Source of the DNA: Candidatus Liptonbacteria bacterium | GTDB lineage: Bacteria; Patescibacteriota; Minisyncoccia; UBA6257; 2-01-FULL-56-20 | Reading direction: 5' to 3' | Assembly: GCA_016204355.1 (NCBI GenBank) | Contig: JACQKT010000011.1 | Coordinates: forward strand, 1 to 34,150 | DNA length: 34,150 nucleotides | Part shown: positions 46 to 22,260 of the stretch, piece after piece | How positions within the stretch are numbered: position 1 is the first letter of the stretch | How the letters are laid out: each line of letters begins with the position of its first letter | Translations under genes and position numbers: made by a program | The notes under the pieces: model-generated | Seen by the model: the letters and a program-made list of their open reading frames with translations, nothing else | Told to the model about the DNA's origin: nothing | Database searches by the model: none

Positions 46-261
46 ATGGATAACATTCGAGAAAATAAAACTAAAAATACTGTATACAAAGTGGGAAGTA
101 TTATACCCGAGAGCGGTCTTTATATATGCGTACCCTGTGGCAATAAAAAATACCTGAGGGCGGGGGCGCGTTTTGGAAATTGCTTAAAATGTCTTGGCAA
201 AGACTGGAGGTTATTTAGAAAAGGATTGGAACTTTGGGAAAAAATATATGAAGAAAAATAG
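46..261 (+). CDS. Small zinc-ribbon protein (CxxC...CxxC)
   Basis: 71-aa ORF with YICVPCGN...GNCLKCLGKDW; overlaps the next gene start; TATAAT at 17-22 upstream. Confidence 0.6.
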   Translation: MDNIRENKTKNTVYKVGSIIPESGLYICVPCGNKKYLRAGARFGNCLKCLGKDWRLFRKGLELWEKIYEEK

Positions 262-1291
262 CACAATAGTTTTAATCGTTTTTGCGGGAATAATTGCCGT
301 CGTTTTGTGGCAACGATTCACAAGAGATGATTTTAATTTGCCTCGTGGTGGGGAAGCAAAAACGGAAACGATATCCATTCCTGATGGCGAGGCAGATGGC
401 AATACTTCATTTTCAACAAAAGAAATTATGGTTACTGACGGTGTAAAACACAGCGTTCCCTTAAGTGAGATTATCGGCGGCGGACCGCCAAAAGACGGTA
501 TTCCGTCCATAGACAATCCTAAATTTATTTCTATCGCTGAGGCAGAAAAATTTTTAAACGACAGCGAGCCGGGCATAGCTCTCGATATCGGTGGTTCGGC
601 ACGATTCTACCCGTTTCAAATCCTAGTCTGGCATGAAATTGTAAATGATACTATCGGCGACCAGCGCGTACTCGTAACCTACTGCCCGCTTTGTCTTTCC
701 GGCATCGTTTTTGACCCGTTGGTCCGCGGCGAGCGCGTGGAATTCGGAACGTCAGGAAAACTGTGGAATTCCAATCTTGTCATGTACGACCGCAAGACTG
801 ATTCCCTATGGTCGCAGATTTTGGGCGAAGCGATTGTCGGGGAAATGACCGGCACGCAACTTAGAGTACTTTCTTCCGACATGACCAGATTCGGTGAATT
901 TAAAAAGCAGCATCCTCAAGGGACCGCACTCTCGCGCGATACGGGGGCGATTCGTTTTTACGGGCAAGACCCTTATGGTGATTACTATACTACGCCGGGG
1001 ACGTATTTCCCCGTCGGGGAAAAAGATAGTCGCTTATGCGATAAAGATTTTGTTTTAGGTATTGTAGTAAACGGAAAGGCAAAAGCGTATTTGCCGGAAA
1101 CGGTGAAGAAAGCCGGCGAGATAAGAGATCGTTTTGAAGGGAAAGATATCATTGCGCGATACGAAAAAGAAATCGATGCAGTTCGTCTTTTTGAGAAAAA
1201 AGCCGACGGCACGGTCGAGCGCATCAATCCGTTCGGAACGTTCTGGTTTTCTTGGGCCGCCGCACATCCGGGCACGGAACTATTTAAATGA
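248..1291 (+). CDS. DUF3179 domain-containing membrane-anchored protein
   Basis: N-terminal TM (STIVLIVFAGIIAVVLW); DUF3179-like LVWHEIVNDTIGDQRVLVTYCPLCLSGIVFD...FGTSGKLWNSNLVMYDRKTDSLWSQ. Start moved from 194 to ATG 248. Confidence 0.85.
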   Translation: MKKNSTIVLIVFAGIIAVVLWQRFTRDDFNLPRGGEAKTETISIPDGEADGNTSFSTKEIMVTDGVKHSVPLSEIIGGGPPKDGIPSIDNPKFISIAEAEKFLNDSEPGIALDIGGSARFYPFQILVWHEIVNDTIGDQRVLVTYCPLCLSGIVFDPLVRGERVEFGTSGKLWNSNLVMYDRKTDSLWSQILGEAIVGEMTGTQLRVLSSDMTRFGEFKKQHPQGTALSRDTGAIRFYGQDPYGDYYTTPGTYFPVGEKDSRLCDKDFVLGIVVNGKAKAYLPETVKKAGEIRDRFEGKDIIARYEKEIDAVRLFEKKADGTVERINPFGTFWFSWAAAHPGTELFK

Positions 1292-1354
1292 AATCTGACA
1301 TCGCAAACCATATAAATTAACGTCTTGCGGTGACATTATAATTGCTATTAAGAA

Positions 1355-1981
1355 ATGGACAACACTCAAATTAAAGGGACAAACTTAAAGCAAGAGGCGT
1401 CGCGCGAAATAAAACAGAGTGCGCGCGAGCTTGCGGAAAAAAGAGAAAAGCTCAAAAAAATAACAAAAAGAGCATTGTGGCTGTTTGTTGCCGCAGGCAT
1501 TGCGTATCTTCTTGTAACTTGGATAGTGGGCCAGTTCCCCAAAGGGCCGGACTACAGCCGAAGCTTCCACATTTTGGGAAGAGAGCATATCTCTCCGGGA
1601 AGCCCGCGACCCGAATATAATTCCGATCCGCCGACGTCTGGTCCGCACCATCCTAATCCTGCCGATGTCTCTTTCTACAGTAAGGAACTGCCGGACGAGC
1701 AATTAGTTCACAATCTCGAGCACGGGCATGTCTGGATTTCGTACCGCTCTGATTTGTCGCAGGAAGTCGTGGACAAACTGAAAGGATTTGCCGGCGGTAG
1801 TGTCATTGTTACCATGCGTTTAAGAAACGACTCGGACATTGCTCTTGCCGCCTGGGGCCGGCTCGATAAGTTCAATCTTGAAAGCGGCCCGTTCCCCGCA
1901 CAGCGCATAAAAGATTTTATATTGAGATATCAAAACAGAGGTCCGGAAAACCCCAATTTACCGAGCCATTTTCGACAATGA
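1355..1981 (+). CDS. DUF3105 domain-containing protein with N-terminal TM
   Basis: NSDPPTSGPHHP...EQLVHNLEHGHVWISYR is typical of DUF3105; TATAAT at 1337-1342. Confidence 0.85.
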   Translation: MDNTQIKGTNLKQEASREIKQSARELAEKREKLKKITKRALWLFVAAGIAYLLVTWIVGQFPKGPDYSRSFHILGREHISPGSPRPEYNSDPPTSGPHHPNPADVSFYSKELPDEQLVHNLEHGHVWISYRSDLSQEVVDKLKGFAGGSVIVTMRLRNDSDIALAAWGRLDKFNLESGPFPAQRIKDFILRYQNRGPENPNLPSHFRQ

Positions 1982-2099
1982 AAGAGTAAAATGAAATAAA
2001 GGCCGAAATAAAGCTACTTTTGGATTTTATATCAACATTGCATAATAATAATGATACGATTTCCAACAAGATGAAAATTAAAATTATAATTTAAAACCT

Positions 2100-2480
2100 A
2101 TGATATTACTTAGTCAGTACAGCGATATCGCATTCCTCGTTTTGCGCTTGGCGATTGCGGCAATCTTTATCTATCATGCACTGCCGAAACTGAAAAATGC
2201 TCAAGGAATGAGTCAGGTGATAGGTATGCCGGCCAGCATGATCTTTATGCTTGGTCTGGTCGAATTCGTTTCGTCTTTAGGAATGTTATTCGGCGTCTAT
2301 ATACAAATCGCAGCATTCCTTCTTGCGATGGTAATGGTCGGGGCCATCTACTTCAAGATTGCGAAATGGCACGTGCCGTTTGCGGCAATGGATAAAACCG
2401 GTTGGGAGATTGATCTTATTCTCCTGGCAGCCAGCGTTCTCATTCTTGTGAACGGCGGCGGGGCGATAGGAGTACAATAA
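2100..2480 (+). CDS. DoxX family membrane protein
   Basis: LRLAIAAIFIYHALPKLKN...GMPASMIFMLGLVEFVSSLGMLFGVY, four hydrophobic segments. Confidence 0.8.
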   Translation: MILLSQYSDIAFLVLRLAIAAIFIYHALPKLKNAQGMSQVIGMPASMIFMLGLVEFVSSLGMLFGVYIQIAAFLLAMVMVGAIYFKIAKWHVPFAAMDKTGWEIDLILLAASVLILVNGGGAIGVQ

Positions 2481-2484
2481 TTTT

Positions 2485-3444
2485 ATGCAATACGACCTTA
2501 TCATCATTGGTTCTGGCGCGGCTGGTCTCGGAGCTGCTCTATACAGCGGCCGATACCGGATGAAGACTCTGGTTATCGGCAGGGAATTCGGTGGCGAGAC
2601 GGCCAAAGCGGGAACTATCGAAAATTATCCGGGCATTCAAGCCGTTGATGGATATGAGCTTATGGATACAATGAAACAGCAGGTCAAAAAACTTGGCATT
2701 GAAGTGCTCGACGCGGAAGCCACTGAAGCGAGGCGGCAGGAGCATTGTTTTGAGATATGTGCGAATAAAACGACATATCAAACGCACGCGATCATTTTCG
2801 CCGTTGGGGCAGAGCGCCGTCGGCTTGGTTTGCCGAATGAAAAAGAGCTTACCGGCAAAGGCGTGCATTACTGCGTCACCTGCGATGGCCCCGTGTACAA
2901 CGGCAAGACAATCGCGATGGTCGGCGGCGGAGATGCTTCGGTTAAGGGCGCCGTACTTGCCGCAGAATACGTAGAAAAAGTATTCCTCATCGTGCGCGGC
3001 AAGGAAGTGACAGCAGAGCCAATCAATTTGGAAAGAATGAAGAAACTTGGCGATAAAATAGAACTCATTTTGGAAACAGAAGTCAAAGAAATCATTGGCG
3101 AAAAGAAGCTGGAGAAATTAATCCTTTCGACCGAGCTTAAAGGAGACCCGGAATTGATTGTTGACGGCTTGTTTGTGGAAATAGGGGCAATGCCGAATGT
3201 TGAGCTTGCAAAATCAATCGGCGCGGAGCTTGACGAACGCGGATACATCAAGACCGATGCCATGATGCAAACAAATATTGACGGCGTTTTCGCTGCCGGT
3301 GATACGGTCAATTATTTCGGTTCATTCAAGCAGGATATAACTGCCGCCGCTATGGGTGCGGTGGCGGCAACCTCTGCCTACAGCGACAGAAAAATTCACG
3401 GCGAGATTTGTCCGATTCACGCACAACCGGCGGCTGTCAATTAA
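2485..3444 (+). CDS. trxB: Thioredoxin reductase-like FAD/NAD(P) oxidoreductase
   Basis: GSGAAGLGAALYSGRY, redox motif YCVTCDGPVYNGK, VGGGDASVKGA, GVFAAGDT. Confidence 0.85.
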   Translation: MQYDLIIIGSGAAGLGAALYSGRYRMKTLVIGREFGGETAKAGTIENYPGIQAVDGYELMDTMKQQVKKLGIEVLDAEATEARRQEHCFEICANKTTYQTHAIIFAVGAERRRLGLPNEKELTGKGVHYCVTCDGPVYNGKTIAMVGGGDASVKGAVLAAEYVEKVFLIVRGKEVTAEPINLERMKKLGDKIELILETEVKEIIGEKKLEKLILSTELKGDPELIVDGLFVEIGAMPNVELAKSIGAELDERGYIKTDAMMQTNIDGVFAAGDTVNYFGSFKQDITAAAMGAVAATSAYSDRKIHGEICPIHAQPAAVN

Positions 3445-3479
3445 TAAAGGTCGGTGAATTAATAGTAAGATAAATAACT

Positions 3480-3653
3480 ATGAACGAAACAGAAAAAAAA
3501 TGCGCAAAATGCGGCGGAAAAACCACGGGGTACAAGTGCGATATGTGCGGCGCTGAAGCCGCTGAGCACGACGAGAAACACAGTTGCGGCGGAGGCCACT
3601 GCGTATCCAAGTGTACCGGTTGCAACCAGGCAGAAACACATTGCCCTTGCTGA
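3480..3653 (+). CDS. 57-aa Cys-rich (10 Cys) zinc-ribbon/metallothionein-like protein, absent from the ORF track
   Basis: Translated by eye: MNETEKKCAKCGGKTTGYKCDMCGAEAAEHDEKHSCGGGHCVSKCTGCNQAETHCPC*; fits between trxB-like and tlpA-like genes (gaps 35 and 3 nt). Confidence 0.75.
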   Translation: MNETEKKCAKCGGKTTGYKCDMCGAEAAEHDEKHSCGGGHCVSKCTGCNQAETHCPC

Positions 3654-3656
3654 AAC

Positions 3657-4199
3657 ATGATTAGGTCTTTGGTTGTTGTCGGTATTGCCGCATTGATTCT
3701 CGGGGGCGCCTGGTTGTTGATTTTTAACCGTACTGCCCCCGATGAATCAAATTCTCAAACGCAACTCCTGCCTGACCGGCAGGCAGTCGAGAAAGCGCCT
3801 GATTTTTCTCTGAAAGATTTTGAAGGTAAAACAGTGCGCCTCGCGGATTTTGCGGGCAAGCCGCTGATTGTTAACTCCTGGGCGGCATGGTGCCCGTTCT
3901 GCCGGAAAGAACTGGTCGATTTCGCCGCGGCGCAGAAAGAGTTTGGAAACAAAGTGGTTGTTATCGCCATAGACCGGGCGGAAGCGCGAGAAGTTGCTAA
4001 AAAGTATACCGACGAACTCGGCGTTACAGAGGATATTATTTTTCTTCTTGACCCCTCGGACAGTTTTTATCAATCAATCGGCGGATTTTCCATGCCGGAA
4101 ACCTTATTTGTAGATTCCGACGGCAGCGTTGTATTTCACAAAAGGGGACCTATGGATATCGATGAAATCCGCGAGAAGGTCGGGAAATTTAAAAATTGA
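3657..4199 (+). CDS. TlpA/ResA-like membrane-anchored thioredoxin
   Basis: N-terminal TM, WAAWCPFCRKEL active site (CPFC), thioredoxin-fold spacing. Confidence 0.85.
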   Translation: MIRSLVVVGIAALILGGAWLLIFNRTAPDESNSQTQLLPDRQAVEKAPDFSLKDFEGKTVRLADFAGKPLIVNSWAAWCPFCRKELVDFAAAQKEFGNKVVVIAIDRAEAREVAKKYTDELGVTEDIIFLLDPSDSFYQSIGGFSMPETLFVDSDGSVVFHKRGPMDIDEIREKVGKFKN

Positions 4200-4206
4200 C
4201 CCAGAC

Positions 4207-4581
4207 ATGAAAACATCCATTAACTCAGTTTTAAAAGTGACTGGCATTCCGGTTATTGTCGCTTCGCTTTGCTGTCTAACGCCGGTGATTATCGTTTTGT
4301 TCGGGCTGGGGTCGGTTTCGCTTGCCGCTTCGCTTGCAGACACGCTTTACGGTACGTATAAATGGGTTTTTCGCATTGCGGGGTTGGCGCTTCTTGGACT
4401 GTCGTTAGTTTGGTATCTGCGGCGCGAGAAAAAAATTTGCACGCTGGATGAAGCCCAAAAACGCCGCAATGAAATTCTCAATATCGTCGCCATTTCACTT
4501 ACGGTAGGAGTCGTCGGATATTTCTTGTGGCTTTATGTCGTGGTGGAATATGCCGGCAAATGGTTGGGTATCTGGAATTAA
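4207..4581 (+). CDS. MerT-like membrane protein with CC pair in TM1
   Basis: IPVIVASLCCLTPVIIVLFGLGSVSLAA resembles MerT-type TM1; further Cys in EKKICTLDEAQ. Start moved to ATG 4207. Confidence 0.55.
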   Translation: MKTSINSVLKVTGIPVIVASLCCLTPVIIVLFGLGSVSLAASLADTLYGTYKWVFRIAGLALLGLSLVWYLRREKKICTLDEAQKRRNEILNIVAISLTVGVVGYFLWLYVVVEYAGKWLGIWN

Positions 4582-4621
4582 AATAAGAAATCAGTATTTT
4601 CTTGCGATTCCAAAACGAAAC

Positions 4622-5044
4622 ATGAAAACAAAATACATAGCAACGCTGGCAATCATTGCTTTCCTGGTGCATATTATTTGGGAAAATGCTCAAGCCTCTC
4701 TCTATGTAGGCTACGAATCTTTTTCTCAGCATTTTCCGATGTGTCTAATCGGCACTGTAGGCGATGTCGCGATAACGCTTCTCGTTTTGGCATTTATGCG
4801 GCTTCTTAAAGAAGATGTAACACAGGCGACAGATTTCTTGGCGCTTGCCATGATGGGATTTGTCATCGCCGTTGCAATTGAACAGCATGCGCTGCTCACG
4901 GGCAGGTGGGGCTACGCACCCGCAATGCCGATAATCCCGATATTGGAAGTCGGGCTTACTCCAATCATGCAAATGATGTTGCTGCTCCCACTCTCATTCT
5001 ATCTGGCAAATTTGGCGAAGTCGGCTAAAAGTGCCTTTACTTAA
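4622..5044 (+). CDS. Small integral membrane protein, unknown function
   Basis: 140 aa, about four hydrophobic segments, in operon; start moved to ATG 4622. Confidence 0.6.
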   Translation: MKTKYIATLAIIAFLVHIIWENAQASLYVGYESFSQHFPMCLIGTVGDVAITLLVLAFMRLLKEDVTQATDFLALAMMGFVIAVAIEQHALLTGRWGYAPAMPIIPILEVGLTPIMQMMLLLPLSFYLANLAKSAKSAFT

Positions 5045-5045
5045 C

Positions 5046-7616
5046 ATGGTAAAAATCATTCAAAATAAGAACCAAATTCTATACCAATGCGAGGAATGCG
5101 GTTTGAAATACAAAAGTAAGGAAATCGCAGGAAAATGCCAGGCGTGGTGCTCGGAACATAAGAGCTGCAATCTCGACCTGATTAAATATGCTGTGGAAGA
5201 TAAAGATATCGCCGCGCCGAAGGAGCGCGCGAACACCCCGACAATCCTCGTCGTGTTTGGGGCGACTGGGGATCTCGCCGTGAAAAAAGTAATTCCCTCT
5301 CTCTGGAATTTATTCAGACACAAGCGCCTGCCGGATCGCCTGTCAGTAATCGGTTTTTCACGGAGAAATTTAACCAATATTGGTTTTAGGGAATTTGTCC
5401 AAAAAACAGTTTTAATGAGTGGTAATAACAAGACGACACGAAGGAAACTGGAACGTTTCGCCAAATTCTTCAAGTATCAGACAGGATTGTTCAACGATAC
5501 GGCGGCGTTTCGCTCGCTCGCCGATGCGATTACGGAGATCGAGGCATCGTGGGGTGTGTGCGCCAATAAGCTGTTCTACCTTGTCGTCCCGCCGCCGGAT
5601 TATGGCTTTATTTTCAAAAACCTCGCATCGGTCAAGCTAAATTTGCCGTGCGGCGGAAGCGGGGGCTGGAGCAGAATTCTCATAGAAAAACCTTTCGGCA
5701 CTGATTTAAAAAGCGCGCGCAAGCTCCAAGCGCTTCTGTCCTCATATTTTAAGGAAGAACAAATATACCGGATCGACCACTACCTCTTCAAAGAAATAGT
5801 TCAGGGCGTAGAGAATTTTCGGTTTTCCAACAATCTCTTCGAGCGCGCGTGGGATAACACGACAATTGAACGTATCGATGTCCGTCTTCACGAATCTATA
5901 GGAGTTGAAGACAGGGGTGGTTTTTACGATGCGGTAGGAGCACTGCGCGACGTAGGGCAAAATCACATGCTTTCCATGCTTGCCGCGATTACAATGGACA
6001 ACAACTTGGAGCCCGGCGCGGCATTCGTCCGAGAAAATCGCGCAGAAATTTTAAGAACCCTCGTTCCTTGGACCGCCAGCACGGTGAAAACCGATACATT
6101 TCGGGGGCAATATAGGGGATATGAGAAAATCAGCGGCGTCAAACCCGGCTCGAAAACAGAAACATATTTTGCGTTAAAAACCGGACTTCTGCATCCGCAC
6201 TGGAAAGGCATTCCGATTTTTATGGAAGCCGGAAAGCGGCTTGCGGAACCGCGAAAAGAAATTGTTTTGACACTCAAGCATCCGCCAGCGTGCTTGCTCT
6301 GCGAGGCAGGTTCGCATGGACCGAATAAAATCGTTTTCCGCATCGAGCCAAACGACGAGATAACCATTCATTTTTGGACAAAGAAACCGGGGTTTGAACG
6401 AATGCTTGAAGAACGGGTGTTTTCTTTCTTTTTGTACGAGAAAGAGATAAAGACGCAGTATGTGGAAGAATACGCGAAAATCATTCACGAAGCGATAATG
6501 GGAGAACAAGCGGTGTTCATAACGTCCGAAGAAGTTGAAGCGCTATGGAAATTTACCGACCCCGTTGTTAAGGGATGGAGGCGGAACATCGCTCCGTTAA
6601 CGCGATATGAGCCGGGCACCACGCCGACTCCGAAGATGTTAAAAATCAGTCCGGATATCTCTGACGAAAATAAATACGAAAAAAACACATTTCGCGCAAA
6701 CGGTGTCGCAATTATTGGCTTAGGGAAGATGGGGGCCAACATCGCGCGTCGCTTGATTTCCAAAAAGTGGAAGGTTGTGGGTTTTAATAAAACTATTGAT
6801 GCGACTAAGAAATTGGAAGAACAAGGAATGGGTGGCGCGTATTCGGTGAAAGAACTCGCAGAGAAATTAACTAAGCCGCGCATCGTGTGGCTGATGGTCC
6901 CCGCCGGAAACCCGGTGGACGATGCCATTTTCGGAAGGGAAGGACTTATCCATTTTCTGGAAAATGGCGACATTATTATTGACGGCGGGAATTCTTTTTA
7001 CAAAGATTCGGCTGCGCGCTACAAAAAACTCAAAAAACGAGGCATTCATTTTGTTGACATAGGTGTTTCGGGAGGACCGGAGGGAGCGCTCCACGGTGCG
7101 TCGTTGATGATAGGGGGCGATTCGAAAATGTTTCGGAAGCTTGAGCCGCTTTTTAACGAATTGTCGGTGCCGGATGGTTACAAATTTTTTAGAGGAGCCG
7201 GAGCGGGTCATTTCGTAAAAATGATTCATAATGGCATTGAATATGGCATGATGCAAGCGATTGCCGAGGGATTCACGATTCTCAAAAAGGCAAAATATAA
7301 ACTGAACTTATCGCAAGTCGCCGATGTCTACAACCACGGGAGCGTAATCGAATCGCGCCTTATTGACTGGCTAAAAAACGCGTTTGATGCGAATCGCAAT
7401 GATTTGAAGAATATTTCCGGTTCGGTCGGTTATACCGGCGAAGGGGCATGGACGGTGAAAACGGCAAAAGAATTAAAAGTACGAGCGCGCATTATCGAAG
7501 AAGCCCTGCGTTTCAGAATTAAATCGAAACGAGACCCAACCTATACGGGAAAAATTTTATCAGCTTTGCGGGAACAATTCGGCGGTCACCGGGTAAAAAA
7601 TAATAAAAAACTATGA
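5046..7616 (+). CDS. Fusion: N-terminal Cys/zinc-binding module + glucose-6-phosphate dehydrogenase (Zwf) + 6-phosphogluconate dehydrogenase (Gnd, short type)
   Basis: One continuous ORF. N-term YQCEECGLKYKSKEIAGKCQAWCSEHKSC; Zwf: VVFGATGDLAVKKVIPSLWNL, RIDHYLFKEIVQGVENFRFSN, GALRDVGQNHM; Gnd: AIIGLGKMGANIARRL, IIIDGGNSFYKDSAARY, DIGVSGGPEGALHGASLMIGGD, GHFVKMIHNGIEYGMMQAIAEG. Confidence 0.9.
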   Translation: MVKIIQNKNQILYQCEECGLKYKSKEIAGKCQAWCSEHKSCNLDLIKYAVEDKDIAAPKERANTPTILVVFGATGDLAVKKVIPSLWNLFRHKRLPDRLSVIGFSRRNLTNIGFREFVQKTVLMSGNNKTTRRKLERFAKFFKYQTGLFNDTAAFRSLADAITEIEASWGVCANKLFYLVVPPPDYGFIFKNLASVKLNLPCGGSGGWSRILIEKPFGTDLKSARKLQALLSSYFKEEQIYRIDHYLFKEIVQGVENFRFSNNLFERAWDNTTIERIDVRLHESIGVEDRGGFYDAVGALRDVGQNHMLSMLAAITMDNNLEPGAAFVRENRAEILRTLVPWTASTVKTDTFRGQYRGYEKISGVKPGSKTETYFALKTGLLHPHWKGIPIFMEAGKRLAEPRKEIVLTLKHPPACLLCEAGSHGPNKIVFRIEPNDEITIHFWTKKPGFERMLEERVFSFFLYEKEIKTQYVEEYAKIIHEAIMGEQAVFITSEEVEALWKFTDPVVKGWRRNIAPLTRYEPGTTPTPKMLKISPDISDENKYEKNTFRANGVAIIGLGKMGANIARRLISKKWKVVGFNKTIDATKKLEEQGMGGAYSVKELAEKLTKPRIVWLMVPAGNPVDDAIFGREGLIHFLENGDIIIDGGNSFYKDSAARYKKLKKRGIHFVDIGVSGGPEGALHGASLMIGGDSKMFRKLEPLFNELSVPDGYKFFRGAGAGHFVKMIHNGIEYGMMQAIAEGFTILKKAKYKLNLSQVADVYNHGSVIESRLIDWLKNAFDANRNDLKNISGSVGYTGEGAWTVKTAKELKVRARIIEEALRFRIKSKRDPTYTGKILSALREQFGGHRVKNNKKL

Positions 7617-8065
7617 ACATCGACCATTCACAAATTAAAGAGCTGGACTACAGCTACATCACCGACGGCATTTTCATCGGCACAAATCAGTGCTGTCAGA
7701 CGCATTTTGACGACAAATTGAGAAAAGAAGGAATCACTGCCGATATTTCTTTGGAAAAAGACCGGCTCGATGCTCCTTTCGGCGTTGATTTTTATCTTTG
7801 GATGCCTGTAGAAGACCATGCGGCCCCCAATTATGAACAATTGGAATTCGGAGTTTCCGCACTCGAGAAATTGGTCGCAATGGGGAGGAAAGTATATGTT
7901 CATTGCAAAAACGGGCACGGACGAGCTCCGACCTTAGTGGCCACTTACTTAGTGAAGAGCGGTAAAAGCCCCGAAGAAGCAGAGGCCTTGATAAAAGCAA
8001 AGCGCCCATCAATGCATCTTGAAGAGGTTCAGCGTGAAGCGATAATAAATTTTAGCCAAAAATAA
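7613..8065 (+). CDS. Dual-specificity/tyrosine phosphatase-like protein
   Basis: CX5R motif VYVHCKNGHGRAPT; 4-nt overlap with the upstream stop. Confidence 0.75.
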   Translation: MNIDHSQIKELDYSYITDGIFIGTNQCCQTHFDDKLRKEGITADISLEKDRLDAPFGVDFYLWMPVEDHAAPNYEQLEFGVSALEKLVAMGRKVYVHCKNGHGRAPTLVATYLVKSGKSPEEAEALIKAKRPSMHLEEVQREAIINFSQK

Positions 8066-8067
8066 TT

Positions 8068-8823
8068 ATGGACTTTTCACTTGTCATACCAGCATTCATA
8101 GCCGGCATTCTCACTTTTCTTGCTCCCTGCACGCTTCCCTTGGTGCCGGGTTATTTGGCGTTCATCAGCGGCGCGTCGGTTGAGGACTTGAAAGATCCGG
8201 AAAGAGCGAAGGGCGCGAAGCGCAGGATTTTTTTGAACGGAGTGTTGTACGTTTTGGGTTTTAGTTTGGTGTTTATCGCTTTTGGAATGCTCGCAGGATT
8301 TTTGGGAACGGCGCTTGCGCCCTATCGCATCTGGCTTACGAGGGTCGGTGGAATTTTGGTGATAACTTTCGGACTTTTTCTCATAGGGGTTCTTAAACTG
8401 CCGTTTTTAACTAAAGATTTTCAACTGAAGGTCGGCGGTGCAATCGGCAGGGGGCAGGGAAAGAGTTCGTTTATCCTCGGCTCGGCATTCGCTTTCGGCT
8501 GGACGCCTTGCGTGGGGCCCATTTTGGGGTCAATACTTCTTTTGGCATCAACTACGACAACCGCGATTCAGGGCGCGTTTCTCCTTTCCGTATTTTCTTT
8601 GGGTCTTGCCATCCCGTTTTTGGCTGTTGCCTTGGGAGTCGGCTCGGCGTCAAAATATATCGCAAAACTATCGAAACTTTTGAGCGTTATTTCCGTAATC
8701 GGTGGCATATTCTTGATCGGGCTCGGCATTCTGCTTTTCACAAACAAAATGACGCTGCTCATTTACTATGGCTATCAATTTTTTGATTTTATAAATTACG
8801 ACGCATTAATAGATTACTTATAA
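8068..8823 (+). CDS. ccdA: CcdA/DsbD-type transmembrane thiol-electron transporter
   Basis: LAPCTLPLVPGYLAFISG and FGWTPCVGPILGS motifs; six hydrophobic segments. Confidence 0.9.
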   Translation: MDFSLVIPAFIAGILTFLAPCTLPLVPGYLAFISGASVEDLKDPERAKGAKRRIFLNGVLYVLGFSLVFIAFGMLAGFLGTALAPYRIWLTRVGGILVITFGLFLIGVLKLPFLTKDFQLKVGGAIGRGQGKSSFILGSAFAFGWTPCVGPILGSILLLASTTTTAIQGAFLLSVFSLGLAIPFLAVALGVGSASKYIAKLSKLLSVISVIGGIFLIGLGILLFTNKMTLLIYYGYQFFDFINYDALIDYL

Positions 8824-8830
8824 TAAAACA

Positions 8831-10183
8831 ATGGTGAAGAATTATGATCTCGTGGTAATCGGCACCGGCTCTGCCGGTTCAACCGCCGCCGGGCATCTGC
8901 GCAGGGCCGGGTGGAGCGTTGCAATTATTGATAACCGCCCTTTTGGAGGAACTTGCGCCTTGAGGGGCTGCGATCCAAAGAAAGTTCTTGTGGGCGCGGC
9001 GGATTTGGTTGACTGGTCGGAACGCATGCAGGAAAATAAGGCGTTCAAAGGAAAAGCGGAAATTGACTGGCAGGCGCTCATGAAGTTTAAGAGAACGTTT
9101 ACCGATCCTCACCCCGGGAACAAAGAAAAAGGATTTGCTAAGGCTGGCATCGAAGCGTTTCGCGGCACGGCGCGGTTTACGGGCAAGAACACCATAGCCG
9201 TCGGTGATGGCACATTGGAAGGCAGGTTTATCGTGATTGCGACGGGTGCCAAACCGGCGAAGTTGCCAATGGAAGGCGCTGAGCACCTCCTTATAAGCGA
9301 TGACTTTCTTGAACTCGAAAAACTCCCCAAGCGCATGGTTTTTGTCGGCGGCGGTTATATCTCCCTGGAATTCGCCCATGTCGTGGCTCGCGCAGGAGCA
9401 AAAGTCACGGTTCTTCACAGAGGCGAACGTTTGCTTGAGGGATTCGATAAGGATTTAGTATACAAACTTGCTAAAGCAAGCAAAGAAGCTGGCATCAATG
9501 TGGTTCTCGGCGTTTCAGTAGAGGCAGTGGAGAAAAAAGGCGAAGGATTTATGGTGAGAGCGTCTTCCGATGGCAAAAAACAATTTTTCGACGCGGACAT
9601 AGTGGTTCACGGCGCGGGGCGCGCGCCGAACATTAGCGAGCTCGATTTGGAGAAAGGCGGCGTTCAAGCGGAGAAAAGGGGTATTTCTGTAAACGAATAC
9701 CTACAGAGCGTTTCAAATCCGGCAGTTTACGCAGCAGGAGACGTCGCGGCCAGCGGCGGACTGCCACTTACGCCGATTGCTGGCCTTGACGGCTATGTTG
9801 TTGCGAGAAACATCCTTGAGGGTAATAAATACACAGCGGATTACACCGCAACGCCAACAGTAGTTTTTACCATTCCGCCACTCGCATCAGTGGGACTTGG
9901 TGAAGAACAAGCGAAAGAACAGAACCTGAAATTCCGCGTGAATTTTACGGATACATCTGACTGGTATTCTTCGCGCAGGATTAATCAAAAGCACTCTGCC
10001 TCTAAGGTGCTTGTAGAAGAAGGCAGCGAGAAGATTGTGGGAGCGCACATTCTTGGCCACAACGCGGAGGAGATTATCAATATTTTTGCGCTGGCGATCA
10101 AACACAATTTAACCGCAAGTGACTTGAATGAAATGATTTGGGCATATCCTACGAACGCTTCGGATATACCTTACATGGTTTAA
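8831..10183 (+). CDS. Pyridine nucleotide-disulfide oxidoreductase (GR/dihydrolipoamide DH/MerA-like)
   Basis: GTGSAGSTAAGHLRRAG, GGTCALRGCDPKK (CX4C), FVGGGYISLEFA, YAAGDVAA; C-term AYPTNASDIPYMV. Confidence 0.85.
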   Translation: MVKNYDLVVIGTGSAGSTAAGHLRRAGWSVAIIDNRPFGGTCALRGCDPKKVLVGAADLVDWSERMQENKAFKGKAEIDWQALMKFKRTFTDPHPGNKEKGFAKAGIEAFRGTARFTGKNTIAVGDGTLEGRFIVIATGAKPAKLPMEGAEHLLISDDFLELEKLPKRMVFVGGGYISLEFAHVVARAGAKVTVLHRGERLLEGFDKDLVYKLAKASKEAGINVVLGVSVEAVEKKGEGFMVRASSDGKKQFFDADIVVHGAGRAPNISELDLEKGGVQAEKRGISVNEYLQSVSNPAVYAAGDVAASGGLPLTPIAGLDGYVVARNILEGNKYTADYTATPTVVFTIPPLASVGLGEEQAKEQNLKFRVNFTDTSDWYSSRRINQKHSASKVLVEEGSEKIVGAHILGHNAEEIINIFALAIKHNLTASDLNEMIWAYPTNASDIPYMV

Positions 10184-20912: not shown

Positions 20913-22205
20913 TCAGACCGGTACGGTGTTGACCAGTCTCTTTTCGATGGCCCCGCGCATCTTGGCATAGATGAGGGGATTGCGAGCCGAGAGGATGTTG
21001 AGCGCGGCGAGAACCGCGTTCGCAGGTTCGAGCACGGTCATCACAGGTGCCGTTTCATGGAGGCTTCTGGCGCCAGCAGGAACCGCGATTACTGGAACAG
21101 TTGACACCCCCGAGAGCATCGAGGCGCCATCATTTCTGTCGCAGGCGGCAATTACGACCGAGTCCGGAACTTCCTGCAAAAGCTGGTTCAAGGTATTGAT
21201 TGCCGTTACCGGTTCCTTGTGTACGGAGCATGTAACGGGTTCCAATATGCCGCGGCAGTCCATTTCCTCTACGGCCCCGAAGAAAGGGTCAGCACTGTCC
21301 GACTTCGATCCCAGCCATAGGATGATGCGCTGGCGGGGCAGGCGGAAACGGCCCGTGATCTCGGCGACCTGTCGGTATTTTTCGGCAACGACATCGAGCC
21401 CGCCGCCGTCGCGGTAGACCTGCTTGTCGATGTAGGCGCCGTTTTCGAGCACGCGCCACGAGTCGTTATCGATGACGTCGGCCAGGAGCATCTTGCCGTC
21501 GCCGTCGAAGCCGAACTCGACTTTGAAGTCGACGAGTTTCCTGCCTTCAAGCTGCCAGGCCTTCTCTAGAACAAGGAAGGCTTCCCTTGCGATGCGGCGC
21601 ATTTCCGGGAAAAAGTTCTGCTCGCCGTCGAACAGGAGGATTTCCGCCCCCGGGATAACGAGAAACGGCTCCTGTCCGTGGATTGGCTTCGCAGGATTGA
21701 AGAGTTGGAAATTCGTCTTCGTTCCCTCGCTGACGTAAACCATGTAAGGGTCGTCGCACGGCAATTTGTGCTTTTTCCACCGCCTATCTTTCGTTTTCAG
21801 GAAATGCTGGCCCTTAAGACGCGGGAACAAATGCCCTTTCGGCAGATAAGGATTCCGCTTCAGCTCGGAACCGTGCCCTTCGCGCCGGATAACTATTTCA
21901 TGCGGAGACATCATGCAGTGTATCGCGATGAACGACGTGGCGCTGTCCTGTTCCATGAAGGCGACAGGAATGCCGCACGCCTTGAGAAGACGGAAAACGT
22001 TGCATGTCGTCTCGTTGGCGAACCTCCCCTTGCCGGAAATGACATCATGCCTGGCTCCGTCACCGGCCGTGATATCGTCCTTGGAGGCGACTATCGCCAA
22101 ATGCGGATTGTTCCTGACAGAAAAAATTTTCTTGGTTTTTCCTTCGGTTGCCAAAGGCCCCATCGGATATTTTTGGGTGAAGCGGTCTGTCGTTCTCGTA
22201 TCCAT
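20913..22205 (-). CDS. PAICS-type fusion: SAICAR synthetase (PurC) + AIR carboxylase (PurE-like)
   Basis: PurC: ATEGKTKKIFSV, KDDITAGDGARHD, FKVEFGFDGDGKMLLADVIDNDSWR; PurE-like: WLGSKSDSADPFF, VTCSVHKEP, IAACDRNDGASMLSGVSTVPVIAVP. ATG 22205 with SD AAAGGAGGG. Confidence 0.85.
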   Translation of the reverse strand: MDTRTTDRFTQKYPMGPLATEGKTKKIFSVRNNPHLAIVASKDDITAGDGARHDVISGKGRFANETTCNVFRLLKACGIPVAFMEQDSATSFIAIHCMMSPHEIVIRREGHGSELKRNPYLPKGHLFPRLKGQHFLKTKDRRWKKHKLPCDDPYMVYVSEGTKTNFQLFNPAKPIHGQEPFLVIPGAEILLFDGEQNFFPEMRRIAREAFLVLEKAWQLEGRKLVDFKVEFGFDGDGKMLLADVIDNDSWRVLENGAYIDKQVYRDGGGLDVVAEKYRQVAEITGRFRLPRQRIILWLGSKSDSADPFFGAVEEMDCRGILEPVTCSVHKEPVTAINTLNQLLQEVPDSVVIAACDRNDGASMLSGVSTVPVIAVPAGARSLHETAPVMTVLEPANAVLAALNILSARNPLIYAKMRGAIEKRLVNTVPV

Positions 22206-22260
22206 CAAAAGCCCTCCTTTCGAGCTATAAAATTGAGGTTATTTCAAGTTATACATCGGA

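Follow-up and report, generated by a model that had tools for sequence, protein, structure and literature searches.

A putative bifunctional Zwf-Gnd enzyme of Patescibacteria, probably joined to a Cys-rich zinc-finger-like module in a Candidatus Liptonbacteria genome

In a 34,150-nucleotide stretch of a Candidatus Liptonbacteria genome (contig JACQKT010000011.1; the window hereafter), one reading frame places two dehydrogenases of the oxidative pentose phosphate pathway behind a Cys-rich module. This raises the question of whether the protein is an NADPH source gated by metal or thiol state or a conserved enzyme to which a neighboring gene has been joined. Patescibacteria are often thought to lack the oxidative branch of this pathway or to retain it in reduced form. 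The single uninterrupted frame at 5046-7616 runs from the ATG at 5046 to the TGA at 7614-7616 with no internal stops and encodes 856 amino acids, comprising the Cys-rich module (residues ~1-58), a glucose-6-phosphate dehydrogenase (G6PD; residues 65-526) and a decarboxylating 6-phosphogluconate dehydrogenase of the short type (6PGDH; residues 554-853). Its features are as follows.

5046..5219, + strand: Cys-rich zinc-finger-like module, residues 1-58, with Cx2C...Cx3C and a fifth Cys (A2, an alignment of 14 module homologues; AF2 model)
5193..5195, + strand: in-frame GTG (V50), where internal initiation could yield a Zwf-Gnd N-terminus of normal length
5250..5804, + strand: G6PD N-terminal (NADP-binding) domain, residues 69-253 (PF00479, E 2.5e-53)
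5817..6623, + strand: G6PD C-terminal domain, residues 258-526 (PF02781, E 2e-70; TIGR00871)
6624..6704, + strand: linker between the dehydrogenases, residues 527-553 (530-547 of low confidence in the model; one frame in 46 loci)
6705..7166, + strand: 6PGDH NAD(P)-binding domain, residues 554-707 (PF03446, E 2e-46)
7206..7604, + strand: 6PGDH C-terminal domain, short type with an R...FGGH tail, residues 721-853 (PF00393, NF007161, TIGR00872)

The feature at 5046-7616 is far beyond chance. Pfam profiles matched G6PD_N at residues 69-253 (181.9 bits), G6PD_C at 258-526 (237.6 bits), NAD_binding_2 at 554-707 (158.4 bits) and 6PGD at 721-829 (75.9 bits), the last match being confined to positions 1-115 of the 290-position profile, which is what a short-type 6PGDH should give. 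Against the NCBIfam models, the Zwf half (residues 65-526) scored 434.1 bits for TIGR00871 (zwf; cut-off 400.6) and the Gnd half (residues 554-853) 365.5 bits for NF007161 (cut-off 271) and 353.3 bits for TIGR00872 (cut-off 297.2). An earlier, sequence-only reading of this DNA had the coordinates and the Cys motif right (CEECGLKYKSKEIAGKCQAWCSEHKSC at residues 15-41), and its placing of Zwf and Gnd in a single chain agrees with these domains, which follow in order and lie above the curated cut-offs in both halves.

In an alignment of 24 one-frame Zwf-Gnd fusions (A1), the invariant residues include K215, D244, H245, K249 and H307 of the Zwf half and S675, G676, G677, K725, H728, N729, E732, R842 and H848 of the Gnd half, together with F845, G846 and G847 of the Gnd tail. 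Alignments with solved G6PD and 6PGDH chains show that these residues fall on known catalytic motifs. The Zwf half matches the EKPxG Lys, the RIDHY His and the Lys that follows it, the QNH His and the GxxGDL motif of G6PD (compared with the human and 9emm chains), and the Gnd half has the SGG and K..HNGIEYG active site and the FGGH tail. Neither half has lost its active site or its nucleotide-binding motifs, which upholds the sequence-only reading on this point. Both halves are likely to use NADP, because N581 of the Gnd half replaces the Asp found in the NAD-dependent short 6PGDHs 8ihe and 4e21 and because its FNKT motif resembles the NRT motif of NADP enzymes; TIGR00872 carries the name NAD+-dependent, contrary to this assignment. 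Comparison with the fused locus L052 gave a purifying pattern for Zwf-Gnd (pN 0.25, pS 0.80). The protein is thus best described as a putative bifunctional oxidative pentose phosphate enzyme, Zwf-Gnd, of Patescibacteria, with its catalytic activities predicted from these motifs.

Zwf-Gnd in one frame was found at 46 distinct loci, mostly in Patescibacteria. Separate adjacent genes with zwf followed by gnd occur at 31 loci, two of which are the same sequence, and the gnd-first order was found in 32 records, mostly from other phyla. Among 151 relatives, 25 hold a complete one-frame fusion, the genome of the window included, and a 26th copy is cut by a contig end. A scan of the contig collection added nine fused records (L052-L060), with titles naming Wolfebacteria, Doudnabacteria and other Patescibacteria as well as bins named Actinomycetes, Coriobacteriia and Slackia, and twelve further fused loci came from a sample of 380 genomes of the phylum. 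In L054, L057, L059 and L060, which are titled Coriobacteriia, Actinomycetes or Slackia, the fusion branches among patescibacterial sequences, which would reflect either gene transfer or mis-titled bins. The linker between Zwf and Gnd is bridged by one frame in 45 loci besides the window, and for this reason an artefact or read-through at this position is excluded. The sequence-only reading had called a Zwf-Gnd order with a metal-binding-like domain unusual; the order itself is common in Patescibacteria, and it is the attachment of the module that is confined to this genome, since the architecture recurs in the 45 other loci and none of them carries the module.

In the zwf tree the window groups with L052, L003, L005, L004 and L056 (support 98), and fused and tandem zwf intermix within one branch. 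One member of the window's family shares an identical zwf with a record of Candidatus Liptonbacteria (L029 and L071). The fused label requires at least 11 changes on this tree, 4 of them forced by the starred branches, compared with 34.7 in shuffles. The simplest story would be that a tandem zwf-gnd gene pair fused early, followed by a few splits or by repeated fusions.

The module, by comparison, is an independent small gene family that, judged from the sequences searched, is joined to Zwf-Gnd only here. It is carried by 75 of 384 genomes of the class, mostly as genes of 52-90 amino acids that usually stand alone. The stand-alone homologues open with the same MVKII or MVNII as the window module, indicating that the ATG at 5046 is the likely module start. 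Positions C15, C18, Y22, A28, C31, W34, C35, C41 and N42 are invariant in A2 and all are kept in the window module, so that the five conserved Cys are retained in the fused copy. Comparison with the module of the relative G004 showed a purifying pattern (pN 0.18, pS 0.86). The extra N-terminal Cys-rich module of the sequence-only reading is thus present, but it is a separate and widespread small gene and not part of the conserved enzyme.

A single-sequence AF2 model of the module (mean pLDDT 88.8) has strands at residues 2-7 and 10-15, helices at 25-38 and 43-51 and a CxxC turn, which fits a zinc-finger-like knuckle. A fold search with the module returned no match with an E-value below 0.001; its best hits, to zinc-finger knuckles and a ribosomal protein, were weak, and the profile matches of the module to zinc-finger chains span short knuckles. 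Searched alone, the module scored 23.6 bits for DUF7128 (PF23447; residues 1-37), under the cut-off of 25.7. The GDCCVxC (seleno)protein domain NF041374 reached 18.1 bits, short of the cut-off of 40. Homologues are repeatedly found next to genes for TlpA, MerT/MerC-like proteins, phosphatase and CcdA or next to metal P-type ATPases; the module adjoins metal P-type ATPases in L134 and L148, and in L038 (G009) it is part of a fusion with a P-type ATPase that has a heavy-metal-binding domain. On the basis of the Cys pattern and these neighbors, the module is probably metal-binding.

The module also stands at the N-terminus of a membrane-like protein of 550-570 amino acids in L140, L143, L149 and L049; L140 has no Pfam family match, and L049 has a weak zinc-ribbon match over the module alone. 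In four genomes of the order (L040, L041, L043 and L048; family code f9) it heads a membrane-anchored protein of ~360 amino acids. The stand-alone module gene of G004 (L032:2893-3069) has a TGA in place of C18, the second Cys of the CxxC. Selenocysteine was considered at this position and rejected: no SelA (PF03841) was detected in G004, and the TGA is more likely to be a lesion or an error of sequencing.

The fusion gene lies in a same-strand cluster (194-10183) that encodes DUF3179, DUF3105, DoxX, thioredoxin reductase-like, TlpA and MerT-like proteins, a small membrane protein, module-Zwf-Gnd, a phosphatase, CcdA and a flavin disulphide reductase. Around the module, parts of this cluster are found again in other Patescibacteria. 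Neighbors of the fusion gene are listed below.

2485..3441, + strand: thioredoxin-reductase-like flavoprotein, a likely NADPH consumer (PF07992, E 1.1e-42; G009 and G107 have a relative in the corresponding cluster)
3657..4196, + strand: TlpA/ResA-like thioredoxin, in one cluster with the fusion (PF08534, E 1.7e-22; adjoins the module in L032-L034)
4204..4578, + strand: MerT-like membrane protein (PF02411, 26 bits, under the cut-off of 32.9; the L135 relative lies between TlpA and the module)
4622..5041, + strand: small membrane-like protein of the gene next upstream, whose stop lies a single base from the module ATG (no Pfam match; L052 relative)
7613..8062, + strand: dual-specificity phosphatase-like gene (PF00782, E 1.1e-12), its ATG overlapping the fusion TGA (ATGA, 7613-7616)
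8068..8820, + strand: CcdA/DsbD-type membrane thiol transporter, a conserved neighbor (PF02683, E 8.2e-17)

The pyridine-nucleotide oxidoreductase at 8831-10183 was rejected as a mercuric reductase, as it is without the C-terminal Cys pair. The phosphatase neighbors the module or zwf-gnd in L032, L033 and L034. In G004 and G009 TlpA is followed by the module, the phosphatase and CcdA, and zwf is absent there. The G107 series runs TlpA, module, two genes (the first matching glycoside hydrolase family 130), a small membrane gene, zwf-gnd, phosphatase and CcdA; here the module and zwf-gnd share a strand, the module standing ~3 kb upstream. In L005, L006, L007, L029, L052, L056 and L061, zwf or zwf-gnd is immediately preceded by a small membrane gene, and no match to this zwf-preceding gene of the relatives was found in the window. 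TlpA, CcdA or the phosphatase occurs in the flanks of 4 of the 46 fused loci (the window, L006, L007 and L052), most of the flanks being ~1.5 kb long, and a flavin reductase lies near the L004 and L056 fused loci.

We consider it probable that a conserved Zwf-Gnd enzyme has captured a neighboring zinc-finger-like gene, which it carries as a passenger within a thiol-redox/metal cluster; catalysis, NADP preference, the thiol link and the function of the module are parts of this picture that we infer. Most likely, deletion of the gene that normally precedes zwf-gnd joined a stand-alone module in frame to the N-terminus of Zwf. Such a deletion would explain both the neighbor orders and the missing small membrane gene. 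Zwf-Gnd sits in the conserved thiol-redox and metal-handling cluster of this genome, where the fused protein could supply NADPH to the neighboring thioredoxin reductase and the CcdA-TlpA relay, a link suggested by the gene neighborhood. The module would most likely be a tethered passenger that keeps its own metal-binding role, and the locus would show the capture, by a metabolic enzyme, of a stand-alone and probably metal-binding gene of a thiol-redox cluster.

The alternative that survives best, and that we nevertheless regard as unlikely, is that the junction between the module and Zwf is an assembly or base-calling artefact and that a module gene of ~52 residues slightly overlaps the real Zwf-Gnd gene. 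This junction is known from one assembly, a draft genome that is 90% complete in 28 contigs; the module is kept separate in relatives and was found in the zwf frame in none of the other genomes searched. When every single-base change was tried in silico, one extra base at ~5184-5201 restored a 52-residue module and a separate Zwf-Gnd in another frame, mostly with zwf starting at ATG 5188 or GTG 5193. However, substitutions that make a stop at codons 50-60 leave Zwf without a start codon, and the workable stops for split genes, at K47 or Y48, both fall on conserved module residues. The junction also offers too little room for the usual module tail, a stop, a start and the usual Zwf leader without overlap, and the missing small gene that usually precedes zwf-gnd points to a real rearrangement. 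The module junction is accordingly held to be probably real, and the Zwf-Gnd junction is not in doubt.

The module might also be bypassed in translation, with initiation at GTG 5193 yielding mainly ordinary Zwf-Gnd and the long form being minor. This codon (codon 50) is in frame and lies 13 codons before the NTPTILVVFG core, which is the leader length of the relatives, but it has no obvious Shine-Dalgarno sequence upstream, and the position of the module ATG, one base from the upstream stop, would suit coupled translation of the long form. We judge internal initiation to be improbable as the main route.

A regulatory role, in which binding of Zn, Cu or Hg or oxidation of thiols by the module would switch the dehydrogenases on or off, was suggested by the sequence-only reading. 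The survival of the five conserved Cys in the fusion, the thiol-redox character of the gene cluster and the position of module homologues beside or fused to metal P-type ATPases (L134, L148, L038) and near MerT/MerC-like proteins are consistent with such gating. Against this, all other fused Zwf-Gnd found are without the module, and the arrangement is not repeated elsewhere in the genomes searched. A model of the whole protein from a shallow alignment of ten sequences (mean pLDDT 76.2, pTM 0.54) places low-confidence links at residues 41-61 and 530-547 between its three parts; residues 41-61, with a pLDDT of ~35, have no defined contact, and the model does not indicate a contact between module and enzyme, which is weak evidence given the shallow alignment. 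With 45 other fused loci lacking the module, metal gating is unsupported as the main reading, and we think it very unlikely. The larger proposal of a single-chain enzyme in an ultra-small bacterium, with NADPH controlled by a metal- or thiol-sensing module and fed to the thioredoxin reductase/CcdA/TlpA relay, appears more doubtful still; if gating were true, sugar oxidation would be tied directly to metal or thiol stress.

Under the preferred reading of a captured passenger, the enzyme itself would carry out two steps, the Zwf half converting glucose-6-phosphate to 6-phosphogluconolactone and the Gnd half 6-phosphogluconate to ribulose-5-phosphate, with NADPH probably formed at both. G000 has both a transketolase and a PF10432 isomerase, indicating a probable ability to make glucose-6-phosphate and to use ribulose-5-phosphate. 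The canonical phosphoglucose isomerase (PF00342) was not found in G000 or G003, and G003 is also without the PF10432 isomerase. Profile searches found no 6-phosphogluconolactonase (PF01182) in the 856-residue protein or in the genome of the window, and a search with PF10282 gave only partial matches, in frames of ~1000 amino acids. The lactone between the two steps would probably be hydrolyzed spontaneously or by an unrecognized enzyme. The proposed yield of 2 NADPH per glucose-6-phosphate is thus a sound expectation for two dehydrogenase steps, but the lactonase that would act between them has no recognized gene here. That the fused enzyme disposes of the lactone, whether by direct transfer or by a hydrolytic activity of its own, and so needs no lactonase is very improbable: the scarcity of PF01182 (3 of 151 relatives, G126 being the sole fused genome to have it, near zwf-gnd) and the merely partial PF10282 matches would suit it, but the protein has no extra domain, most unfused relatives also lack a lactonase, so that its loss is not tied to the fusion, and delta-lactone hydrolysis can be spontaneous (PMC3148214). 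The widespread occurrence of this one-gene enzyme without a recognized lactonase suggests a minimal NADPH source for Patescibacteria.

A Zwf-Gnd fusion in bacteria is apparently undescribed, as no earlier report of one in bacteria, Patescibacteria included, was found in the open-access literature. The window also holds, at 20913-22208 on the - strand, a PurC-PurE-type fusion in which SAICAR synthetase (PF01259) is followed by an AIR-carboxylase-like domain (PF00731, 28.4 bits, just under the cut-off of 30), in the same order as vertebrate PAICS. G6PD-6PGL fusions are described by Stover et al. (2011), and the only earlier G6PD-6PGD fusion found in the open-access literature, that of the diatom Phaeodactylum tricornutum, comes from the same paper, which notes doubts about the legitimacy of its gene model (PMC3148214). 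The diatom protein resembles that of the window in having both enzymes in one polypeptide, but it belongs to one eukaryote that has further 6PGD copies as well as a gene for 6PGL (PMC3148214), whereas the fusion described here is found in many bacterial genomes, has a short-type 6PGDH and mostly occurs with no recognized 6PGL. The G6PD-6PGL fusions (animal H6PD, apicomplexan 6PGL/G6PD and the G6PD::6PGL of Giardia and Trichomonas) likewise join G6PD to a pathway partner, in their case the lactonase, which was not found as PF01182 in the window protein or genome. Bacterial tandem zwf-gnd or gnd-zwf pairs place the same enzymes side by side but as two polypeptides. The pair with zwf first is frequent in Patescibacteria, and records from Chloroflexota, Chlorobi and Thiobacillus have gnd first, unlike the Zwf-Gnd order. 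The Gnd half shares its length, catalytic motif and FGGH tail with the short 6PGDHs (TIGR00872/NF007161; 8ihe Gnd2, 4e21 and 6vpb) and differs in being fused behind Zwf and in having Asn for the Asp of the NAD-specific enzymes. The module shares a Cx2C knuckle with DUF7128 (PF23447) and small zinc-finger-like families, from which it differs by an additional, fifth Cys and a second helix.
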